From Antiquaquibacter metalliresistens (lineage in GTDB: Bacteria > Actinomycetota > Actinomycetes > Actinomycetales > Microbacteriaceae), in assembly GCF_029211225.1 (NCBI RefSeq), contig NZ_JARGEM010000005.1, forward strand, positions 124,001 to 188,000: 64,000 nt of DNA. The letters are read 5' to 3'. The notes below the pieces were generated by a model. It made no database searches, was not told where the DNA came from, and saw nothing but the letters and a program-made list of their open reading frames with translations. The translations under genes and the position numbers were made by a program. This document shows positions 25,003 through 35,248 of the stretch, piece by piece (positions within the stretch are counted from its first letter, which is position 1; each line of letters opens with the position of its first letter).

Positions 25003-25110
25003 GCTCACTACGCTAGCCGCTGCCCCGGCGAGGTGACCGGGAATTGACCTACGCTGGGACCTCCGGGCAGTGCGCCCGTGGCGAACACGCCCCCGACACC
25101 AAGGAGCCCG

Positions 25111-26217
25111 TTGGCCCTCTTCACTGACCACGACGTGCGCCCGCCCCGGCGACGGATCGGGGCCGTCATCGGCTGGAGCGTCATCGCCCTCGGCGTCGCA
25201 GGGGTCGTCGTCGTCGCCAACCTGCCGGCGCCCTACGTGATCGAGCAGCCCGGCCCGGTGTACAACACCCTGGGCGAGGTGCGTTTCGGTGACGAGGACG
25301 TGCCGTTGATCGAGATCCCCGACGAGACCACCTATCCGACCTCGGGCGCGCTCAGCATGCTCACGGTGACGGTGAGCGGCAACCGGGAGAACCCGCCGAG
25401 CTGGCTGGAGATCGTCGGCGCGAACCTCGACCAGAGCAAGGCGGTCGTGCCGGTCGACGAGGTGTATCCGGAGGGCGTGAGCCAGGAGCAGTCCAACGAG
25501 CAGGGTCGCATCGACATGGCGAACTCGCAGAAGGAGGCGGTGGCGGCCGCGCTCGGCGAGCTCGGCTACACCTTCCCGAGCACCGTCACCGTCGTCGAGG
25601 TGCAGCCCGACCTGCCCGCGGACGGCGTGCTGCTGCCCGGTGACATCGTGCACACCGTCGACGGCGTCGAGGTGCAGGATGTCACGGGTCTCCGCGCGGA
25701 GATCGCCGCCAACGGCGTCGACGCGCCCGCGAGCTTCGGCATCGAGCGCGACGGCGAGCAGCTCACCGTCGACGTGCTGCCGCAGTTCGCGGAGGACGGC
25801 GAGACCCCCATCATCGGCGTCTACGTGGGCGGCGACTACGAGTTCCCCTTCGACGTGAAGATCCAGCTCGAGAACGTCGGCGGCCCGAGCGCCGGCATGA
25901 TGTTCGCACTCGGCATCATCGACAAGCTCACGCCCGGCGAACTCAATGGCGGCGAGAACGTCGCCGGCACCGGCACCATCTCCGGCAGCGGGGAGGTGGG
26001 CGCGATCGGGGGCATCCGGCAGAAGATGTGGGGCGCCTCGCGCTCCGGCGCCGACTGGTTCCTGGCGCCCGCGGCGAACTGCGCCGAGGTCGTGGGGCAC
26101 ATTCCATCGGGCCTGACGGTGTTCGCCGTCGCGACGCTGGATGACGCGCTCACCGCCCTTTCCGCGATCGCCGACGGCTCCGACACCGCCTCGCTGCCGA
26201 CCTGCTCGGCGGGCTGA
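25111..26217 (+). CDS. Lon-like PDZ-domain serine protease (YlbL/S16 family)
   Basis: The 368-residue protein has one N-terminal membrane helix (about 18-39), a PDZ domain (about 150-225, LLPGDIVHTVDGVEV) and a C-terminal Lon-type catalytic domain with Ser260 in GGPSAGMM and Lys305 in GGIRQKMWGA, 45 residues apart as in S16 peptidases. It should degrade or process exported proteins at the outer face of the membrane. The start was set at the TTG at 25111 because AAGGAG lies seven bases before it. An in-frame GTG at 25078 would add 11 residues without a ribosome binding site. Counterpart of Rv3194c, upstream of UPF0182. Confidence 0.85.
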   Translation: MALFTDHDVRPPRRRIGAVIGWSVIALGVAGVVVVANLPAPYVIEQPGPVYNTLGEVRFGDEDVPLIEIPDETTYPTSGALSMLTVTVSGNRENPPSWLEIVGANLDQSKAVVPVDEVYPEGVSQEQSNEQGRIDMANSQKEAVAAALGELGYTFPSTVTVVEVQPDLPADGVLLPGDIVHTVDGVEVQDVTGLRAEIAANGVDAPASFGIERDGEQLTVDVLPQFAEDGETPIIGVYVGGDYEFPFDVKIQLENVGGPSAGMMFALGIIDKLTPGELNGGENVAGTGTISGSGEVGAIGGIRQKMWGASRSGADWFLAPAANCAEVVGHIPSGLTVFAVATLDDALTALSAIADGSDTASLPTCSAG

Positions 26218-29170: not shown

Positions 29171-29174
29171 CGCT

Positions 29175-29213
29175 CTCGCGACGGGCGCCCGCCGTTCAGG
29201 CGTCCGTCGCGAG
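29175..29213. terminator. Hairpin terminator between convergent genes
   Basis: Arms 29175-29189 and 29199-29213 pair over 15 bases with one G-U position and a 9-base loop, starting four bases after the UPF0182 stop. No U-tract follows. The right arm covers the last codons of the convergent gene, so it may serve both directions. Confidence 0.6.
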
Positions 29214-29588
29214 CAGCACGAACGAGAGCACCACCGCGGCGAGGCCCAGGCCGAGGAACACGATCGCGAGCACGCCGAGCGCGCGACCGGGATGCGGTGC
29301 ACCCTTCAGCCGGGCGTGCTCGCCACGGTGCAGCACCCGGCAGTGGTCGTCGCCGGCGAGCTCGTCGAGCTCCCAGGGCTCGAGCGCGCGCTCGCGCAGG
29401 GCGCCGTCCTCGCCGATCCAGCGCAGTCGGGCCTCGGATGCCTCACCGACGACCACCGCGTCGGTCTCCACCCACAGCGTGCGCATCGACAGTGCCACGA
29501 GCCAGAGGATGCCGAAGACGCCGCCCACCGCGAGGCCGATCCAGGTGAACAGTTCCGCCAGCAGGCCGAGCGCGTCGTGAATGCTCAT
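29196..29588 (-). CDS. Two-helix membrane protein of unknown function
   Basis: The 130-residue protein has hydrophobic helices near residues 9-30 (LAELFTWIGLAVGGVFGILW) and 105-128, separated by a soluble stretch of about 70 residues beginning TLWVETDAVVVGEASE that could form a small beta domain. No known family is recognised. The start was placed at the ATG at 29588 because GGAG lies upstream at suitable spacing; an ATG at 29600 would add MERG and has no binding site. It lies downstream of the fused sigma-factor gene on the same strand, 61 bases away. Confidence 0.65.
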   Translation of the reverse strand: MSIHDALGLLAELFTWIGLAVGGVFGILWLVALSMRTLWVETDAVVVGEASEARLRWIGEDGALRERALEPWELDELAGDDHCRVLHRGEHARLKGAPHPGRALGVLAIVFLGLGLAAVVLSFVLLATDA

Positions 29589-29649
29589 GCCGCGCTCCAT
29601 GCAGCGGAGTCTATCGGCGCGGCGTCGGATCGCGTCTGGGGGCCGGCGG

Positions 29650-31581
29650 TCACGGTGCGATGGTGAAGGCGATCTGATGCAGCGAACCGACCCGGCCATC
29701 GACCTGGTCCACGTAGCGCACCCCGACGATGTGCGCACCGTCCGCCAGCGGCGGCGTCACCCGCGAGATCGGGGCGGCGGCGAGCGTGTGGATGTTGCCG
29801 GTCGGTACTCCGTCGATCAGCACCTCCACCTGCATCCCCTCGATGCCGTCGAGTTCCAGGGTGACGACCGTGGCACCGCCCGTGGACTCGATCACGGCGC
29901 CGTCGTGCGGGATCACGAAGGTCGGGCGTGAGAAGCTCAGCGGACCCGAGGGCGTCGACGTCGGCGAGGTGTTCCCGGCGGGGTCGACCTGCGATGCCGT
30001 CAGCGTGACGCCGTCCCGCGCGGGATCCGGCAGGGGAGACGACCACGAGCCGTCCGCGGCCGTCACCGCGGAGGCGACGGCGGCACCATCGACCTGCAGC
30101 TCGACGACCGCGCCGGGTTCCGCAGTGCCGGAGACGGTCGGCAGGTAGAGCGCTTCCGTCGGGAGCGGGTCGACGACCGGTGCGAGAGCAACGGTGTCGA
30201 TCGTGAGGGTGCGCAGCCCTGCCGCCGAGCGGTTTCCCGCGCCGTCGACCTGGGTGAAGGCGAGCGTGTGGGCGCCGTCCGGGATCGGCGCGTTCGGCTG
30301 CAGACTCCAAGCGCCGTCGCGGTCCACGGTCGCCGACACGGGCGCCGACCCCGGGAAGGCGACGTCGACTCGCGCGCCGGGCTCGCCGCGGCCGGTGAAC
30401 CGAGGCATCGGGTCGTTGCTGAGCAGGGCGTCGGCGGGTGTGAGCACCGTTGGCGCGGTCGGCGCGATGGTGTCGCGGGGAGGCGAGGGCGGCCCCGGCA
30501 CCTGCGCTTCGGGTGCCGGGACGTCCGGCTCGCGGGTTCGGGTATCCGGCTCGTGCGGTGTTTCCGGCGTCGCGGACGGGGTGGGCGTGGGCTCGGGTAT
30601 CCCCGTCGGTTGGCGCGACGGTTGCGTCTGCTCATCCCCGGCATCCGTGATCTCGGGGCCGGATGCGACCAGACCAGGCACCGCGACCGCGGCACCGACG
30701 ATCACCACGGCGGCGACCGCGCCCAGGGCCACCGCCAGCACGGGTCGGGGGAGCGCCGTCCGAGCACCACCGGCGACGGAGCTGGCGGTCGACGGCGGCG
30801 GATCGGCATGGAGCGCGGCGAGCAGACCCGCTCCCGCGGTGCCGCCGATGGTGAGCGGAAGCAGCAGCGAGGCGAGTCGACCGCCCAGGTCGTCGACCTC
30901 TTCGACGAGGATCGAACATCGTGCGCAGGTGCGCAGGTGCGCCTCGAAGCGCCGCCGACCGGTTGCCGAGAGCGCGTCGCGAACGTAGTCGCCCATGCGC
31001 TCCGTCGTCCATCGGCACTCGGCGGGCACACGGCGGTCGTTGACGTGCGCCTGCAGCCACGCCTTCTTCAGGCCTTCTCTCGCGCGGTAGCTCAGGGCCG
31101 CTGCGGCATTCGGGGTCAATCCCAGCAGGGGAGCCGTCTCGGCGGGCTCCATGCCTTCCACCTCGGTGTACCACAGGATCGCCTGCCAGCGTTCGGGCAG
31201 GGTGCGGAACGCATGCACGGTGACGGTGTTCTCCAGCACCGTGCTCTCCGGGTCGAGCTCCGTGCTCTCGATCTCCTCGGTGAGTTCGCCAGCGCTGGGC
31301 GCTGCCTTCAGATTCCAGTCCAGCGCGACGTTGCGGATGGTGCGGTACAGATAGGGACGGAATGCCTCGTGCGGACCGCCTCCGCGCTGCAGCGCGCGCA
31401 GGATCCGCAGGTACGCCTCGGACACAATGTCGTCGGCGTCCGCGATCGAGTCGAACTGCCTGGCCGCGGTGAGACCCGCGTGAGCGTGCCGTTGCCACAG
31501 TTCCGCGTACGCGGACTGATCGCCGCGTCGGGTGCGCTCGGCGAGTTCGGCGTCTCCCGCCTCGTCGGCCCGCCCTTGCAT
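29650..31581 (-). CDS. Membrane-anchored ECF sigma factor fused to zinc-finger anti-sigma-like domain and extracellular Ig-like repeats
   Basis: The 643-residue chain joins a sigma-70 region 2 (about 25-90, including DADDIVSEAYLRILRAL and FRPYLYRTIRNVALDW), a region 4 (about 125-178, LPERWQAILWYTEVEGMEPA), a zf-HC2-type zinc finger (Cys189, then HLRTCARC with His215, Cys219 and Cys222), one membrane helix (about 279-304), a Pro/Thr linker, and roughly three extracellular beta-sandwich repeats (about 340-643; e.g. RFTGRGEPGARVDVAF, TVSGTAEPGAVVEL). Sigma and anti-sigma modules normally occur as two proteins; C-terminally extended ECF sigma factors are known but uncommon. It should sit in the membrane and respond to an external or wall signal. 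ATG 31581 follows a GGGGGA. It is divergent from the DUF11 surface protein. Confidence 0.85.
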   Translation of the reverse strand: MQGRADEAGDAELAERTRRGDQSAYAELWQRHAHAGLTAARQFDSIADADDIVSEAYLRILRALQRGGGPHEAFRPYLYRTIRNVALDWNLKAAPSAGELTEEIESTELDPESTVLENTVTVHAFRTLPERWQAILWYTEVEGMEPAETAPLLGLTPNAAAALSYRAREGLKKAWLQAHVNDRRVPAECRWTTERMGDYVRDALSATGRRRFEAHLRTCARCSILVEEVDDLGGRLASLLLPLTIGGTAGAGLLAALHADPPPSTASSVAGGARTALPRPVLAVALGAVAAVVIVGAAVAVPGLVASGPEITDAGDEQTQPSRQPTGIPEPTPTPSATPETPHEPDTRTREPDVPAPEAQVPGPPSPPRDTIAPTAPTVLTPADALLSNDPMPRFTGRGEPGARVDVAFPGSAPVSATVDRDGAWSLQPNAPIPDGAHTLAFTQVDGAGNRSAAGLRTLTIDTVALAPVVDPLPTEALYLPTVSGTAEPGAVVELQVDGAAVASAVTAADGSWSSPLPDPARDGVTLTASQVDPAGNTSPTSTPSGPLSFSRPTFVIPHDGAVIESTGGATVVTLELDGIEGMQVEVLIDGVPTGNIHTLAAAPISRVTPPLADGAHIVGVRYVDQVDGRVGSLHQIAFTIAP

Positions 31582-31630
31582 GCAATCCCCCGATTTCGCC
31601 GCGGTGGGTCTCCCCGTTTCCGTGCTCTTG

Positions 31631-31750
31631 ATTAACACCGGGTTCAACCGACGACTATGACGCGGCATGCCCGAAATTGCCGGAGTGGGCCACTCGGGCC
31701 GAGAACATTCTGAGCTTGCGTCATAGGCGGCTGTCAAACCGAGTGTCAGT
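31631..31750. promoter_or_regulatory. Paired, inverted promoter-like elements shared by the sigma-factor and surface-protein genes
   Basis: Two 33-bp stretches, 31718-31750 on the plus strand and 31663-31631 on the minus strand, agree at 24 of 33 positions. Each has GCGTCATAG, then exactly 16 bases, then GTGTCA (31743-31748) or GTGTTA (31638-31633), with AACC conserved in the spacer. Each element points toward its own gene, ending 65 bases before the ATG at 31816 and 49 bases before the ATG at 31581. The two-block layout with 16-base spacing is what a pair of promoters for one sigma factor would look like. It does not match the common AAC/CGTC ECF consensus. Confidence 0.6.
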
Positions 31751-31815
31751 TCGTGGATGCACAGCCATGCGCACGCGCGCCGTCGCACCCACGTCGGAAC
31801 AGGAAGAGCACAACC

Positions 31816-34800
31816 ATGCCGCAGCCCATCGTCAGATCCTCTGGCACGCACCCACGTCGCACTCGCATCGCCGGTGCCGCCATCGCCGTGATCCTCGGCT
31901 TGGGCATGAGCCTTGGTGCGGCCGGAGCCGCGCACGCGGTCGCGTCGATGACCGTGAGCATCCAGGCGACGAACGCGACGACGCAGCCCTCGGGTGCACA
32001 GTTCAGCTACCAGATCAACATCGCGTGCGGGGGAGCGAACGATCCCTCCTGCAACGGCACGAGCATCGTGATTCCCCTGGACGCCACCGCCGATGGCGGG
32101 CCGTGGAGCATGACGGACTGGGGATTCGAGGTCTCCGGCGGTCCGGCGGGTTTCGTGCAGGGCTGGAGCGTGCAGGGTGACGACCTTGTCATCGAGCTCA
32201 ACGGCAGCATCCCGACCGGGTCGTCGCAGAGCATTCTGCTCGGCGTGACCCCGCCGAACCTGCAGACCCCCAACGGCACCACCTGGTCACTGCTGCCGAG
32301 CGCCGTCACCGACGACCCGGACACGACCGGCGGTGTCGCGCCGACGGCCGCGGTCGGCACCGCGACGGCCGCCGTGCCGCTGACGACCGCGAAGACCAGC
32401 GACCGCACCTTCTACGCCGAGGGGGAGCAGATCGCGTACACCATCACCGCCACCTGCCCCGCGACCAAGCCGATCGGCTCGGTGTACGCCGACACCCTCG
32501 CGGTCGTCGATGTGCTGCCCGCGGGGCTGACGTTCGACTCCGCCTCCGGAGGCGGCGTGTGGAACCCGGTTGACCGTACGATCACCTGGACCTACCCGAC
32601 CCCCGAGTCGGTGCCCGAGGCCTGCGGCGGGACCCCGCCCGCCGCCGCGTCGGCGACCCAGACAGTGCTCGCCACGATGGGGCCGGTCGATGGCGACCCG
32701 ATCCCCGCGTACGGCCAGGTCACCAACACCGTCACCGCCACCGCGACCCCCTCCGGTGGCGGTGACTCCAGTAGCGCGACGGCGAGCCGCACGATCGTGG
32801 CGCTCGCCGACGGCGGCGACCCGATCCCCGGCACGCACGCACTGGGCAAGACCTCCGCTGCGCCGTTGAACCGTTCGGCGGATGCCACCCCCGACTTCCG
32901 TGCGACCTACCCCGGCCGTTGGCTCCCCAACGGAGACAACAGCGCTCGACCGGCGTCGATGGCCGAGGGCAACCCCGCAGGCTACCGCTTGCAGCCGCGC
33001 GTGCAATACGAGGAGCACCAGTACGAGATCGTCGACGCCATGCCCTGCCTGACCAACGTCTCGGGGGTGCTGTACCGACCCGTCGACTCCGGTGTGTGCA
33101 CCGACCCGGCCTTCCACGTGCTGGGCGTCCGAATCGACTACTCGGGGGTGGCGCCCGCCGCGGGCTACGCGCCGCGCTTCCTCGACACCGCTGGCACCGA
33201 ACATGACATGGTGCTCGAGACCGGTACGGCGAACTGGGCGGCGTGGACCGTTCCGGATGCGTTCATCGGGGATGTCGCCGCCGTGATCATCCCGCGCGAC
33301 GCGAGCCAGGAGCGGCGGACCGCGGACAACATCCGCATCGACGGATACGCCGACGGCTCCCTGACGGACGGCGCGGTGCTGCAGAACCAGGCGAGCGTGG
33401 AGTGGTTCCTCAGGGATGGCACGACCCCCGTCGCCCAGGACGAGTCGCCGAACGCCGACGTCTTCGTCGTCAACACTCCGCAGATCGGCATCGCCAAGCG
33501 CATGACGGATGTCGGCGGCGCCACCGGCACCGAGGCGCGTGTCGACCTGACCGCCACCCTCTTCACACCGGGCCTGCCCGCGGCCGACCTGATCGTCACC
33601 GACCTGCTTCCGGCCGGCTCCGCTCTCGCCGACGATCCGGACGGGATCGGTGCCGAGTTGCGCTCGGCCGGCGGCAGCCCGATCGACGTCCCGGCCAGTG
33701 AGCTCGAGGTGGAAGTCGTCGACGATGCGGTGGGCGAGCAGCAGCTCATCCGATTCACGTTGCCGGTCGAGGCCATCCCAGCGCAGTCGGGCCGGGTCGA
33801 CCTCGTGGTCGACGACTTCGTGGTCGACAAGCCGGAGACCCCGGGCATCTACGTCAACGCCGCGAGAGTGTTCTACGACAGCGCCACCCTCGCCGGGCAG
33901 TGTTTCGCGGGCAGCTACATCGCCGATGACCCCGATGGGCTCCGCGGCGACGACTCGACGGTGCCCGCTGGGTGTGAGGCGACCGCCCAGTACCGCACCA
34001 TCACCTCCACGAGCGGTCAGTTCCAGCTCAGCAAGAGCGTGCAGGGGGACTACGACACCGCCCCGCAGGTGTTCCCGCACCTGGGTCACGTGAAGCTGCA
34101 GGATGGCGCGGCGGTCTTCGGGGTGAGCTGGCAGAACGTCGGCGCCCCGGCCCTGAACGGTGTCGTGCTGTACGACGTGTTCCCGCACGTCGGCGACACC
34201 GGTGTATCCGGCGATCAGGCGGATGAGTCGCGCGGCAGCCAGTTCCGCCCCGTGCTCGCCGGGCCGGTGGTGGTCCCACCCGGGGTCACGGTCTCCTACT
34301 CGGCATCCGTCGATCCCTGCCGTCCCGAGGTCTTCGTCGGACAGGGCGCCTGTACTGACGATTGGACGACGGATCCGCTGGCGCTCGGCGGGTTCGCCGA
34401 GGTCAACGCGGTGCGTCTGGTCGCGACCGGCAGCTATGAGACGGGGCAGGGCTTCGAGCTCACGTTCCCGATGACCATCCCGAGCATCGACAAGGACCTC
34501 GTCGCATGGAACACCGTGGCGGCGTACGCGCAGACCACCGGAGGGATCGCGTTGCTGCCCACCGAGTCGCCTCGCGTCGGGATCACCGGCTCGGATGAGC
34601 GTCTGAGCCTGGCGAAGACCGTCGACGTGGCGTCGGCGAAGCCCGGCGACACCCTGACGTACCGGGTGACGGTCACCAACGTCGGCACCGGCACGAGCCT
34701 GGCGACGACCGTGACCGACACCCTGCCGGAGGGGGTCACCTTCGTCTCCGCGGATCACGGCGGCAGCTACGATCCCGGCGACCGCACCGTCACATGGGCG

Positions 34801-35121
34801 GTGCCCGAACTCGCTCGAGACACCGAGGTGGTCTACACGCTGATCGCGACGGTGGATGCGACGCAAGACCGTGATCGCGTGATCAACCGTGCGAGCCTCG
34901 AGAACCCGCCCGGGTACTCCCCGCCGGTCGTCGACACCGCGTGCGACGACGATCCGCTCGCCGCCTGCGCGCCCACCACGGTGCCGCGCACGCCGCGCGT
35001 GCTCGGATTCACCGGCGCGGAGCTGTCGACGGCGCTGATCGTGGCTGTCGTGGCCGCCCTCGCCGCAGGCACCGCGCTCGTGGTTCTGGGCCGTCGCCGA
35101 CGGAACGCGGACGTGCGCTGA
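31816..35121 (+). CDS. Large secreted DUF11-repeat cell-surface protein with degenerate sorting signal
   Basis: The 1,101-residue product has a basic signal peptide (1-41, predicted cleavage after AHA) and a long series of beta-sandwich domains of the DUF11/isopeptide-like type, seen in segments such as VVDVLPAGLTFDSASGGGVW, LIVTDLLPAGSALADD and VTDTLPEGVTFVSADHGG. It ends with LGFTGAE, a hydrophobic helix and RRRRNADVR: the layout of a sortase signal in which the usual LPxTG Pro is Gly. It is likely displayed on the cell wall or held in the membrane, possibly as an adhesin or structural layer. ATG 31816 with AGGAAGAG upstream. It is divergent from the membrane sigma factor, its probable regulator. 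Confidence 0.8.
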   Translation: MPQPIVRSSGTHPRRTRIAGAAIAVILGLGMSLGAAGAAHAVASMTVSIQATNATTQPSGAQFSYQINIACGGANDPSCNGTSIVIPLDATADGGPWSMTDWGFEVSGGPAGFVQGWSVQGDDLVIELNGSIPTGSSQSILLGVTPPNLQTPNGTTWSLLPSAVTDDPDTTGGVAPTAAVGTATAAVPLTTAKTSDRTFYAEGEQIAYTITATCPATKPIGSVYADTLAVVDVLPAGLTFDSASGGGVWNPVDRTITWTYPTPESVPEACGGTPPAAASATQTVLATMGPVDGDPIPAYGQVTNTVTATATPSGGGDSSSATASRTIVALADGGDPIPGTHALGKTSAAPLNRSADATPDFRATYPGRWLPNGDNSARPASMAEGNPAGYRLQPRVQYEEHQYEIVDAMPCLTNVSGVLYRPVDSGVCTDPAFHVLGVRIDYSGVAPAAGYAPRFLDTAGTEHDMVLETGTANWAAWTVPDAFIGDVAAVIIPRDASQERRTADNIRIDGYADGSLTDGAVLQNQASVEWFLRDGTTPVAQDESPNADVFVVNTPQIGIAKRMTDVGGATGTEARVDLTATLFTPGLPAADLIVTDLLPAGSALADDPDGIGAELRSAGGSPIDVPASELEVEVVDDAVGEQQLIRFTLPVEAIPAQSGRVDLVVDDFVVDKPETPGIYVNAARVFYDSATLAGQCFAGSYIADDPDGLRGDDSTVPAGCEATAQYRTITSTSGQFQLSKSVQGDYDTAPQVFPHLGHVKLQDGAAVFGVSWQNVGAPALNGVVLYDVFPHVGDTGVSGDQADESRGSQFRPVLAGPVVVPPGVTVSYSASVDPCRPEVFVGQGACTDDWTTDPLALGGFAEVNAVRLVATGSYETGQGFELTFPMTIPSIDKDLVAWNTVAAYAQTTGGIALLPTESPRVGITGSDERLSLAKTVDVASAKPGDTLTYRVTVTNVGTGTSLATTVTDTLPEGVTFVSADHGGSYDPGDRTVTWAVPELARDTEVVYTLIATVDATQDRDRVINRASLENPPGYSPPVVDTACDDDPLAACAPTTVPRTPRVLGFTGAELSTALIVAVVAALAAGTALVVLGRRRRNADVR

Positions 35122-35136
35122 TCGTTGACTGCGCCG

Positions 35137-35171
35137 TGTGCGGGGGCATCGGGTCGAGATGTCCCCGCACA
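35137..35171 (+). terminator. Hairpin terminator after the surface-protein gene
   Basis: Arms 35137-35150 and 35158-35171 pair over 14 bases (one G-U) around a 7-base loop, 16 bases after the stop codon. No T-run follows. Confidence 0.6.
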
Positions 35172-35248
35172 TGCGCTAAGCTATACCGAGCGAATCACGG
35201 AGCCTTGACGGCGTCGAGGTTCCCTGGAACTCCCTGAGGGGTTCACGG

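Follow-up and report, generated by a model that had tools for sequence, protein, structure and literature searches.

A fused ECF sigma factor with Ig-like repeats shares a promoter-like dyad with a divergent surface-protein gene

ECF48, ECF52 and ECF53 are listed as actinobacterial groups of fused ECF sigma factors, whose release by proteolysis is expected; in ECF48 and ECF53 the C-terminal fusion adds a zinc-finger anti-sigma domain with either one or two membrane helices (PMC8999054). A preliminary description of the DNA analysed here had stated that fused finger/membrane types of ECF sigma factor exist, and these three groups bear it out (PMC8999054). The term 'Ig-like' is absent from the main text of the same paper (PMC8999054). 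Among the literature that we found on ECF52 and ECF53, an experimental study of a fused protein was present only for SCO4117 of Streptomyces coelicolor. According to its description, SCO4117 (ECF52) combines sigma regions, a zinc finger, a membrane region, a Pro-rich stretch and an outer domain in one chain, as does the protein considered here (PMC5826349). Its autoregulation was proposed and a pleiotropic effect was reported, and in a strain retaining only the sigma part the SCO4117 transcript was 1.3-fold up (PMC5826349). IutY of Pseudomonas putida (ECF243) is by description a comparable sigma factor, fused to a membrane-bound anti-sigma part and released by proteolysis (PMC8999054), but it differs in serving iron-starvation signalling in a Gram-negative host.

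Proteins that unite sigma, anti-sigma and membrane parts occur commonly in Actinomycetota. The fusion as such is already known; what is new here is evidence for the role of one such protein, encoded in the window (the whole stretch of DNA analysed, 64 kb) of a source genome of 3.07 Mb in 34 contigs. Our literature search found no paper combining membrane-tethered, Ig-like and fused sigma factors and, by title and start of abstract, none among those on ECF sigma factors with sortases or adhesins that linked a tethered sigma factor to a surface protein.

Domain make-up and relatives of the fused sigma protein

The minus strand at 29650-31581 holds an uninterrupted frame of 643 codons (Table 1), whose start was picked to agree with homologue starts; the GGGGGA before it was seen in the sequence. 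Pfam and NCBIfam searches confirmed the earlier claim that sigma, finger, membrane and Ig-like parts are united in this frame: the models named for that purpose (sigma regions 2 and 4, zf-HC2 and Big) all matched, Sigma70_r4_2 with 21.2 bits against a curated Pfam cut-off of 25.7. The full-length ECF model TIGR02937 covered residues 24-174 and passed (53.4 bits vs a cut-off of 42.9), and with region 2 also above its cut-off the protein has the features of an ECF (group 4) sigma factor; the same profile searches gave no match to region 3. Where about three beta repeats had been counted, two Ig-like repeats stood, and the third proved to be a distinct terminal domain at about 548-643.

Table 1. 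Features of the fused sigma gene, its neighbours and the intervening gap (positions in the window)
Feature	Position	Strand	Basis or remark
Small protein, two membrane helices by eye	29196..29588	-	open reading frame; begins 61 bp beyond the stop codon of the sigma gene
Gene of the 643-residue fused sigma factor	29650..31581	-	start ATG 31581, GGGGGA just 5'
Conserved terminal head domain, residues 548-643	29653..29940	-	identity with close relatives
Ig-like repeat 2, residues 482-543	29953..30138	-	Pfam Big_6 5e-21; listed with it, NCBIfam Ca_tandemer 2e-23 (two stretches of the protein)
Ig-like repeat 1, residues 387-463	30193..30423	-	Pfam Big_13 3.2e-23
Pro/Thr-rich acidic spacer, residues 306-375	30457..30666	-	sequence composition
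H2, predicted membrane helix, residues 281-299	30685..30741	-	Kyte-Doolittle mean 2.81
H1, hydrophobic segment, residues 239-257	30811..30867	-	proline P242 in 77/81, glycine G246 in 75/81; profile match to ChrR
Class I anti-sigma zinc finger, residues 189-222 (C189, H215, C219, C222)	30916..31017	-	Pfam zf-HC2 2.4e-10
Sigma region 4, residues 124-169	31075..31212	-	Pfam Sigma70_r4_2 2.3e-4, under curated cut-off
Sigma region 2, residues 41-89	31315..31461	-	Pfam Sigma70_r2 5e-9
Promoter-like dyad of the sigma gene, GCGTCATAG-N16-GTGTTA	31633..31663	-	motif scan
Promoter-like dyad of the surface-protein gene, GCGTCATAG-N16-GTGTCA	31718..31748	+	motif scan
Divergent, predicted wall-anchored surface protein, 1101 residues	31816..35121	+	DUF11 and isopeptide-type repeats; LGFTG end

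Homologues were sought with the first 307 residues as query (E up to 1e-15), which matched in 23 of the 27 genus genomes and in 111 of the 299 family genomes (46 of 85 genera); one genome, G029, had seven matches. The 81 stretches yielded 82 sigma frames from 80 loci (L087 lacked a start), and 81 sequences were aligned. The exceptions among the frames were a second one of 241 residues in L127, that of L061, at a contig end, and the short ones of L077 and L134 described below. Since sigma frames came from 80 of 81 loci, and 78 of 81 proteins had at least two hydrophobic segments in frame after the finger, a frameshift artefact behind the fused frame is unlikely. We regard the fused architecture as nearly certain.

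The four finger ligands had been placed correctly: in the alignment, window protein included, 74 sequences have C at position 189 and 7 have H, and H215, C219 and C222 were present in 81/81. The window protein has the C/H ... HxxxCxxC zinc motif of the class I anti-sigma domain. A profile of the finger region (41 sequences) matched the solved structures of RslA (1.5e-5) and ChrR (2.7e-5), zinc anti-sigma domains that are alike to it by profile; RslA and ChrR are separate proteins, unfused to a sigma factor.

The membrane topology needed revision, because the finger is followed by two hydrophobic segments, H1 and H2, rather than by the one membrane helix described earlier; probably only the second spans the membrane. 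If both did, the Ig repeats would be inside, and a protein with cytoplasmic C-terminal repeats would sense something within the cell. That 78/81 proteins have at least two segments past the hydrophobicity threshold after the finger fits such an arrangement, which we nevertheless consider very improbable. H1 is conserved in sequence (the proline and glycine of Table 1), unlike a plain span, and the profile alignment to ChrR, a soluble protein, crosses it gap-free; that to RslA stops short of it. H2 was the more hydrophobic segment in 60 of 77 proteins. Mean charges flanking H2 in these 77 agree with an outside C-terminus, with K/R at 0.61 and D/E at 0.10 in the 15 residues before it and 0.21 and 1.42, respectively, in the 15 after it; counted per protein, K/R fitted that orientation in 21/77, were equal in 52/77 and were opposite in 4/77. 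The window protein itself has two K/R on the N-terminal side of H2 and two D/E on the C-terminal side, and the 60 residues after H2 contain 43% P/T/S, with 11 D/E and 3 K/R. In the same part of relatives lie Pro/Thr spacers, DUF11 and NPCBM domains, all of them outer-surface features. We tentatively assign H1 to the linker and fourth helix of the anti-sigma domain, the helix that in class I domains binds sigma region 2, and think that H2 is the single membrane span, which would put the repeats outside.

Of the ECF52 traits, sigma regions, zinc finger, membrane region and Pro-rich stretch were found in the window protein, and the carbohydrate domain was not, with no NPCBM match in Pfam at E up to 1. 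The outer domain is a carbohydrate-binding module in SCO4117 (PMC5826349), whereas the window protein has Ig-like repeats and another kind of head. L340, used as an ECF52 proxy (NPCBM 3.3e-26), fell into the other main clade (100/98) of a midpoint-rooted tree in which it was the single NPCBM proxy. We file the window protein as a probable variant in the fused class and set it beside ECF48 and ECF53, to which, by their published description, it is alike in its fusion of finger and membrane parts (PMC8999054).

Outer domains varied among the relatives. At E up to 0.01, Pfam found zf-HC2 in 58, Sigma70_r2 in 58 and Sigma70_r4_2 in 55 of the 58 proteins scanned (from 82), and Big_6 and Big_13 in 15 and 12 of them. 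The best 80 loci of a GTDB contig scan included Kribbella, Amycolatopsis, Cellulomonas, Demequina, Streptomyces and others; of their 79 proteins 45 were scanned, all with region 2 and the finger, 11 with DUF11 and 4 with Big_6. With finger and sigma regions shared and outer domains varying, the sigma-finger-membrane fusion is a large class in actinobacteria, one whose outer domains change from member to member. In two proteins of 347 (L077) and 348 residues (L134) sigma, finger and membrane helix were kept and the outer part was almost gone; neither gene has CGTCAT within 250 bp upstream.

In the 81-row tree the window protein clustered with L078, L079 and L059 (100/99), and in the midpoint-rooted tree, of 54 rows, proteins of Cellulosimicrobium and Oerskovia were next to join (99/97). 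The terminal head domain was 40-56% identical in the three closest relatives; in the Cellulosimicrobium protein identity was 36%, measured over 66 residues. All five proteins carry the patterns DGxxTGxxH and RxxxxLxxGxH in this domain. Ig-like stretches numbered one in L059 (also labelled L138), two in the window protein and L079, and three in L078. We read the outer part as a stalk of variable length that would bear a conserved head. The source genome also encodes a 516-residue paralogue (locus L058) of another subfamily, adjoining a 1637-residue LAYTG protein. The window subfamily (4 sequences) and that of the paralogue (25) differ at 13 near-fixed positions; 63, 66, 80, 85 and 87, which lie in region 2 or close to it, are among these.

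A promoter-like dyad upstream of sigma genes

A GTCA-N18-GTCT core was present in the 200 bp upstream of 36/82 sigma genes, compared to 7 for the best dyad of any type in five letter shuffles, and CGTCAT occurred within 250 bp upstream of 48/82, where 0.11 per region was expected; the core was absent from 46 upstreams and CGTCAT from 34. Many of the dyad-bearing loci come from one genus and are not independent. The family consensus was GCGTCATA-N16-GTCTCT, which is unlike the motif proposed for SCO4117, as is the window dyad; that motif, CSGYN-17-SRHA, was called theoretical by its authors and differs from an earlier prediction (PMC5826349). In the wider phylum CGTCAT was found in 17/79 upstreams, five of them from Microbacteriaceae, and the commonest dyad was GACG-N18-GACG (26/79, a count that stands without a shuffle control).

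The gap between the window's sigma gene and the divergent gene (31582-31815) contains one dyad variant per strand, each facing its gene, and these are the two matches to the loose dyad in the 64-kb window. Their -10 part, GTGTYA, is unlike the family's GTCTCT. A search of the source genome for GCGTCATR-N16/17-GTGTNA returned 2 sites, both in this gap (reversed control 0). In 26 other genomes the same pattern gave 3 matches vs 10 in the reversed control, so that the GTGTNA form alone is at background level and the weight lies in both matches falling in one gap.

The broader pattern GCGTCATN{16,19}GTSTY matched 17 sites in the source genome (reversed control 1). Five of these fit GCGTCATA-N16/17-GTSTY: four stand in front of the window sigma gene, the divergent surface gene, the paralogue and a choice-of-anchor-G gene, and the fifth comes immediately after the paralogue. 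GTGTYA is the -10 class at both window sites and GTCTC that of the other three. The remaining 12 were inside script-called genes; the two window sites were flagged as in-gene as well, because the longest sigma frame extends upstream of the likely start.

Presence of the strict dyad, GCGTCATA-N16-GTCTC, followed that of the tethered sigma factor. In the genus it occurred in 19/27 genomes (reversed control 1 site), namely in 19/23 with a matched tethered sigma and in 0/4 without (G015, G017, G023 and G025); G002, G008, G009 and G016 have the sigma factor and lack the strict dyad. Across the family there were 80 sites in 44 of 299 genomes (reversed control 8 sites), and the dyad was found in 43/111 genomes with a matched sigma vs 1/188 without (Fisher p = 1.9e-20, uncorrected for relatedness).

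The surface-protein partner, the insertion and a proposed circuit

The divergent gene encodes a protein with a signal segment and a sorting end made of LGFTG, a hydrophobic segment and an Arg-rich tail with five K/R in the last 12 residues, which fits a sortase-anchored surface protein. Similar pairings were seen in 2 of 3 sister loci, where the gene of a sortase-type SdrD_B protein near the sigma gene has a loose dyad in front of it. In L059 this is a LALTG protein of 531 residues, encoded immediately after the sigma gene, and in L078 a LASTG protein of 824 residues, two genes off; both proteins have SdrD_B and Big_8 domains. Counting the window, 3 of 4 loci of the subfamily thus pair the sigma gene with a dyad-bearing surface gene. 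L078 has one further loose match (6512), and L079 has two divergent dyads with no anchored gene beside them. Anchored neighbours in L101, L104 and L135 have no loose dyad, and none precedes the 1637-residue neighbour of the paralogue.

As for homologues that share both the architecture and the partner, which the preliminary description had proposed to seek, the architecture is common, but under a motif rule of our own only 13/82 loci have a sortase-type gene no more than two genes away from the sigma gene. A general rule that the sigma gene adjoins a surface gene is weak (14/303 genes at the nearest two places to either side vs 10/536 from the fourth on, p = 0.03) and was not adopted. The partners could not be treated as one family either, since those of the sister loci are SdrD_B proteins and that of the window is of the DUF11 type.

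The module interrupts an otherwise conserved gene order. The UPF0182 gene to its left was found in 25/27 genomes, source genome included, and in 24/24 other genomes it is followed by tRNA-Met (cat) at a spacing of 36 to 1076 bp (21/24 at 92 bp or less). In the window the two are 6.1 kb apart (29171-35248), with the genes of the small membrane protein, the fused sigma factor and the surface protein between them. Among the direct repeats listed, all of at least 16 nt, no pair stood at the two ends; a repeat designated D5, 79% alike over 24 nt, lies within the small gene and beyond the tRNA. It looks as though sigma and surface genes were acquired as a unit, and our best reading of the pair is a portable module. 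The small protein, for which Pfam gave no family at 0.01, may have an accessory role, which is a guess.

The link that the preliminary description had suggested between the tethered sigma and the divergent surface gene is well supported by sequence, the same rare dyad standing before both genes, and shared control of the two is likely. We judge that the sigma factor is probably autoregulated and membrane-tethered and drives itself and the divergent wall-anchored protein. In such a circuit the zinc-finger anti-sigma domain, joined covalently to sigma regions 2 and 4, would silence them on the cytoplasmic side, H2 would span the membrane, and the Pro/Thr-rich spacer, Ig-like repeats and terminal head would lie outside. 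An outer signal, which according to the preliminary description may be the state of the wall or surface, would lead to a first cut outside and then to a second by a membrane M50 protease, and the sigma part so freed would transcribe from GCGTCATAG-N16-GTGTYA at its own promoter and at that of the wall-anchored protein. The source genome has two matches to M50 proteases. A Lon-type protease had also been reported elsewhere in the window and is real: PDZ and Lon_C domains are encoded at 25078-26217, 3.4 kb from the sigma gene.

The surface gene might instead be one of many unrelated targets of an ordinary ECF52/53-type fused sigma factor with a broad regulon, its neighbourhood being incidental. 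The fusion is widespread in Actinomycetota, SCO4117 (ECF52) is described as pleiotropic (PMC5826349), and the low count of nearby sortase-type genes (13/82) points the same way; against this, GCGTCATA-N16/17-GTSTY marks only 5 of 17 sites, at two tethered sigma genes, two surface genes and the post-paralogue position, and sigma and surface genes lie together in one insertion. We consider a broad regulon a serious but somewhat unlikely account, and favour the autoregulated pair.

A more speculative extension, which we hold to be rather doubtful, is a portable surface-display module of sigma factor, two back-to-back promoters and wall-anchored protein, in which the Ig-stalked head would sense the surface that the module builds (its own product, the wall or contact). 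A single protein would then feed back from the cell surface to the promoter, with no need of a kinase, a receptor or a separate anti-sigma factor. Given the sharp candidate promoter, the short target list and the compact insertion of two genes, a single reporter plasmid would be enough to test the whole circuit, and the findings suggest that such fused sigmas may set which adhesins a cell displays.

Candidate targets of the dyad beyond the window

Choice-of-anchor-G proteins, on which our literature search found no paper, were the most frequent candidate targets. The one in the source genome has 644 residues, matches NF033766 at 4e-69 and has a sortase-type end. The genus yielded 28 matches in 19/27 genomes, and for 14 of these matches a strict dyad lay 207-455 bp ahead of the domain; no such protein was found in the four sigma-less genomes or in the sigma-bearing G008, G016, G019 and G026. 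We examined 40 strict-dyad loci, mostly picked away from sigma genes, with target families named by profile matches for one or two members each and by phmmer for others. Their 42 strict sites comprised 19 before surface or secreted proteins (13 choice-of-anchor-G, 3 DUF6230 and 3 others with a signal-like start), and 5 before SigK-like sigma genes. Of the rest, 3 belonged to tethered-sigma loci, 3 fell within a called gene and 12 had no clear target. The SigK-like ECF genes (L301, L304, L314, L318 and L322) suggest a sigma cascade below the tethered sigma.

These genes also bear on whether another regulator or sigma factor reads the dyad and controls tethered sigma and surface genes jointly. 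That the SigK-like genes carry the dyad means that cascades exist, and G065, an assembly 83% complete in which no tethered sigma was found, has four strict sites (L322-L325), one preceding a SigK-like gene and one a choice-of-anchor-G gene. Such control by a third party is nonetheless quite unlikely in our estimate: dyad and tethered sigma go together in the 299 family genomes, the five source-genome sites split into two -10 classes, GTGTYA in the window vs GTCTC, and the window and paralogue subfamilies differ at the near-fixed positions given above, some of them in or near region 2. We infer that the window's sigma factor itself uses the two window dyads.

A second copy of the dyad lies directly after the paralogue's stop (L058:10911-11042; C29:77910) and is followed by about 100 nt with two hairpins and a terminator-like stem; this stretch is a candidate small RNA that may be under control of the tethered sigma. 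Rfam had no match for the post-sigma stretch in L058, L074 or L089, and RNAalifold found no consensus pairs in 13 diverse post-sigma stretches. In the paralogue's subfamily a relaxed dyad follows the sigma gene in 25/34 loci, and GCGTCAT occurs within 150 nt after it in 19/34 loci vs 3/48 other loci. Among eight close post-sigma sequences RNAalifold did find pairs, and 10/34 of these were changed on both sides.
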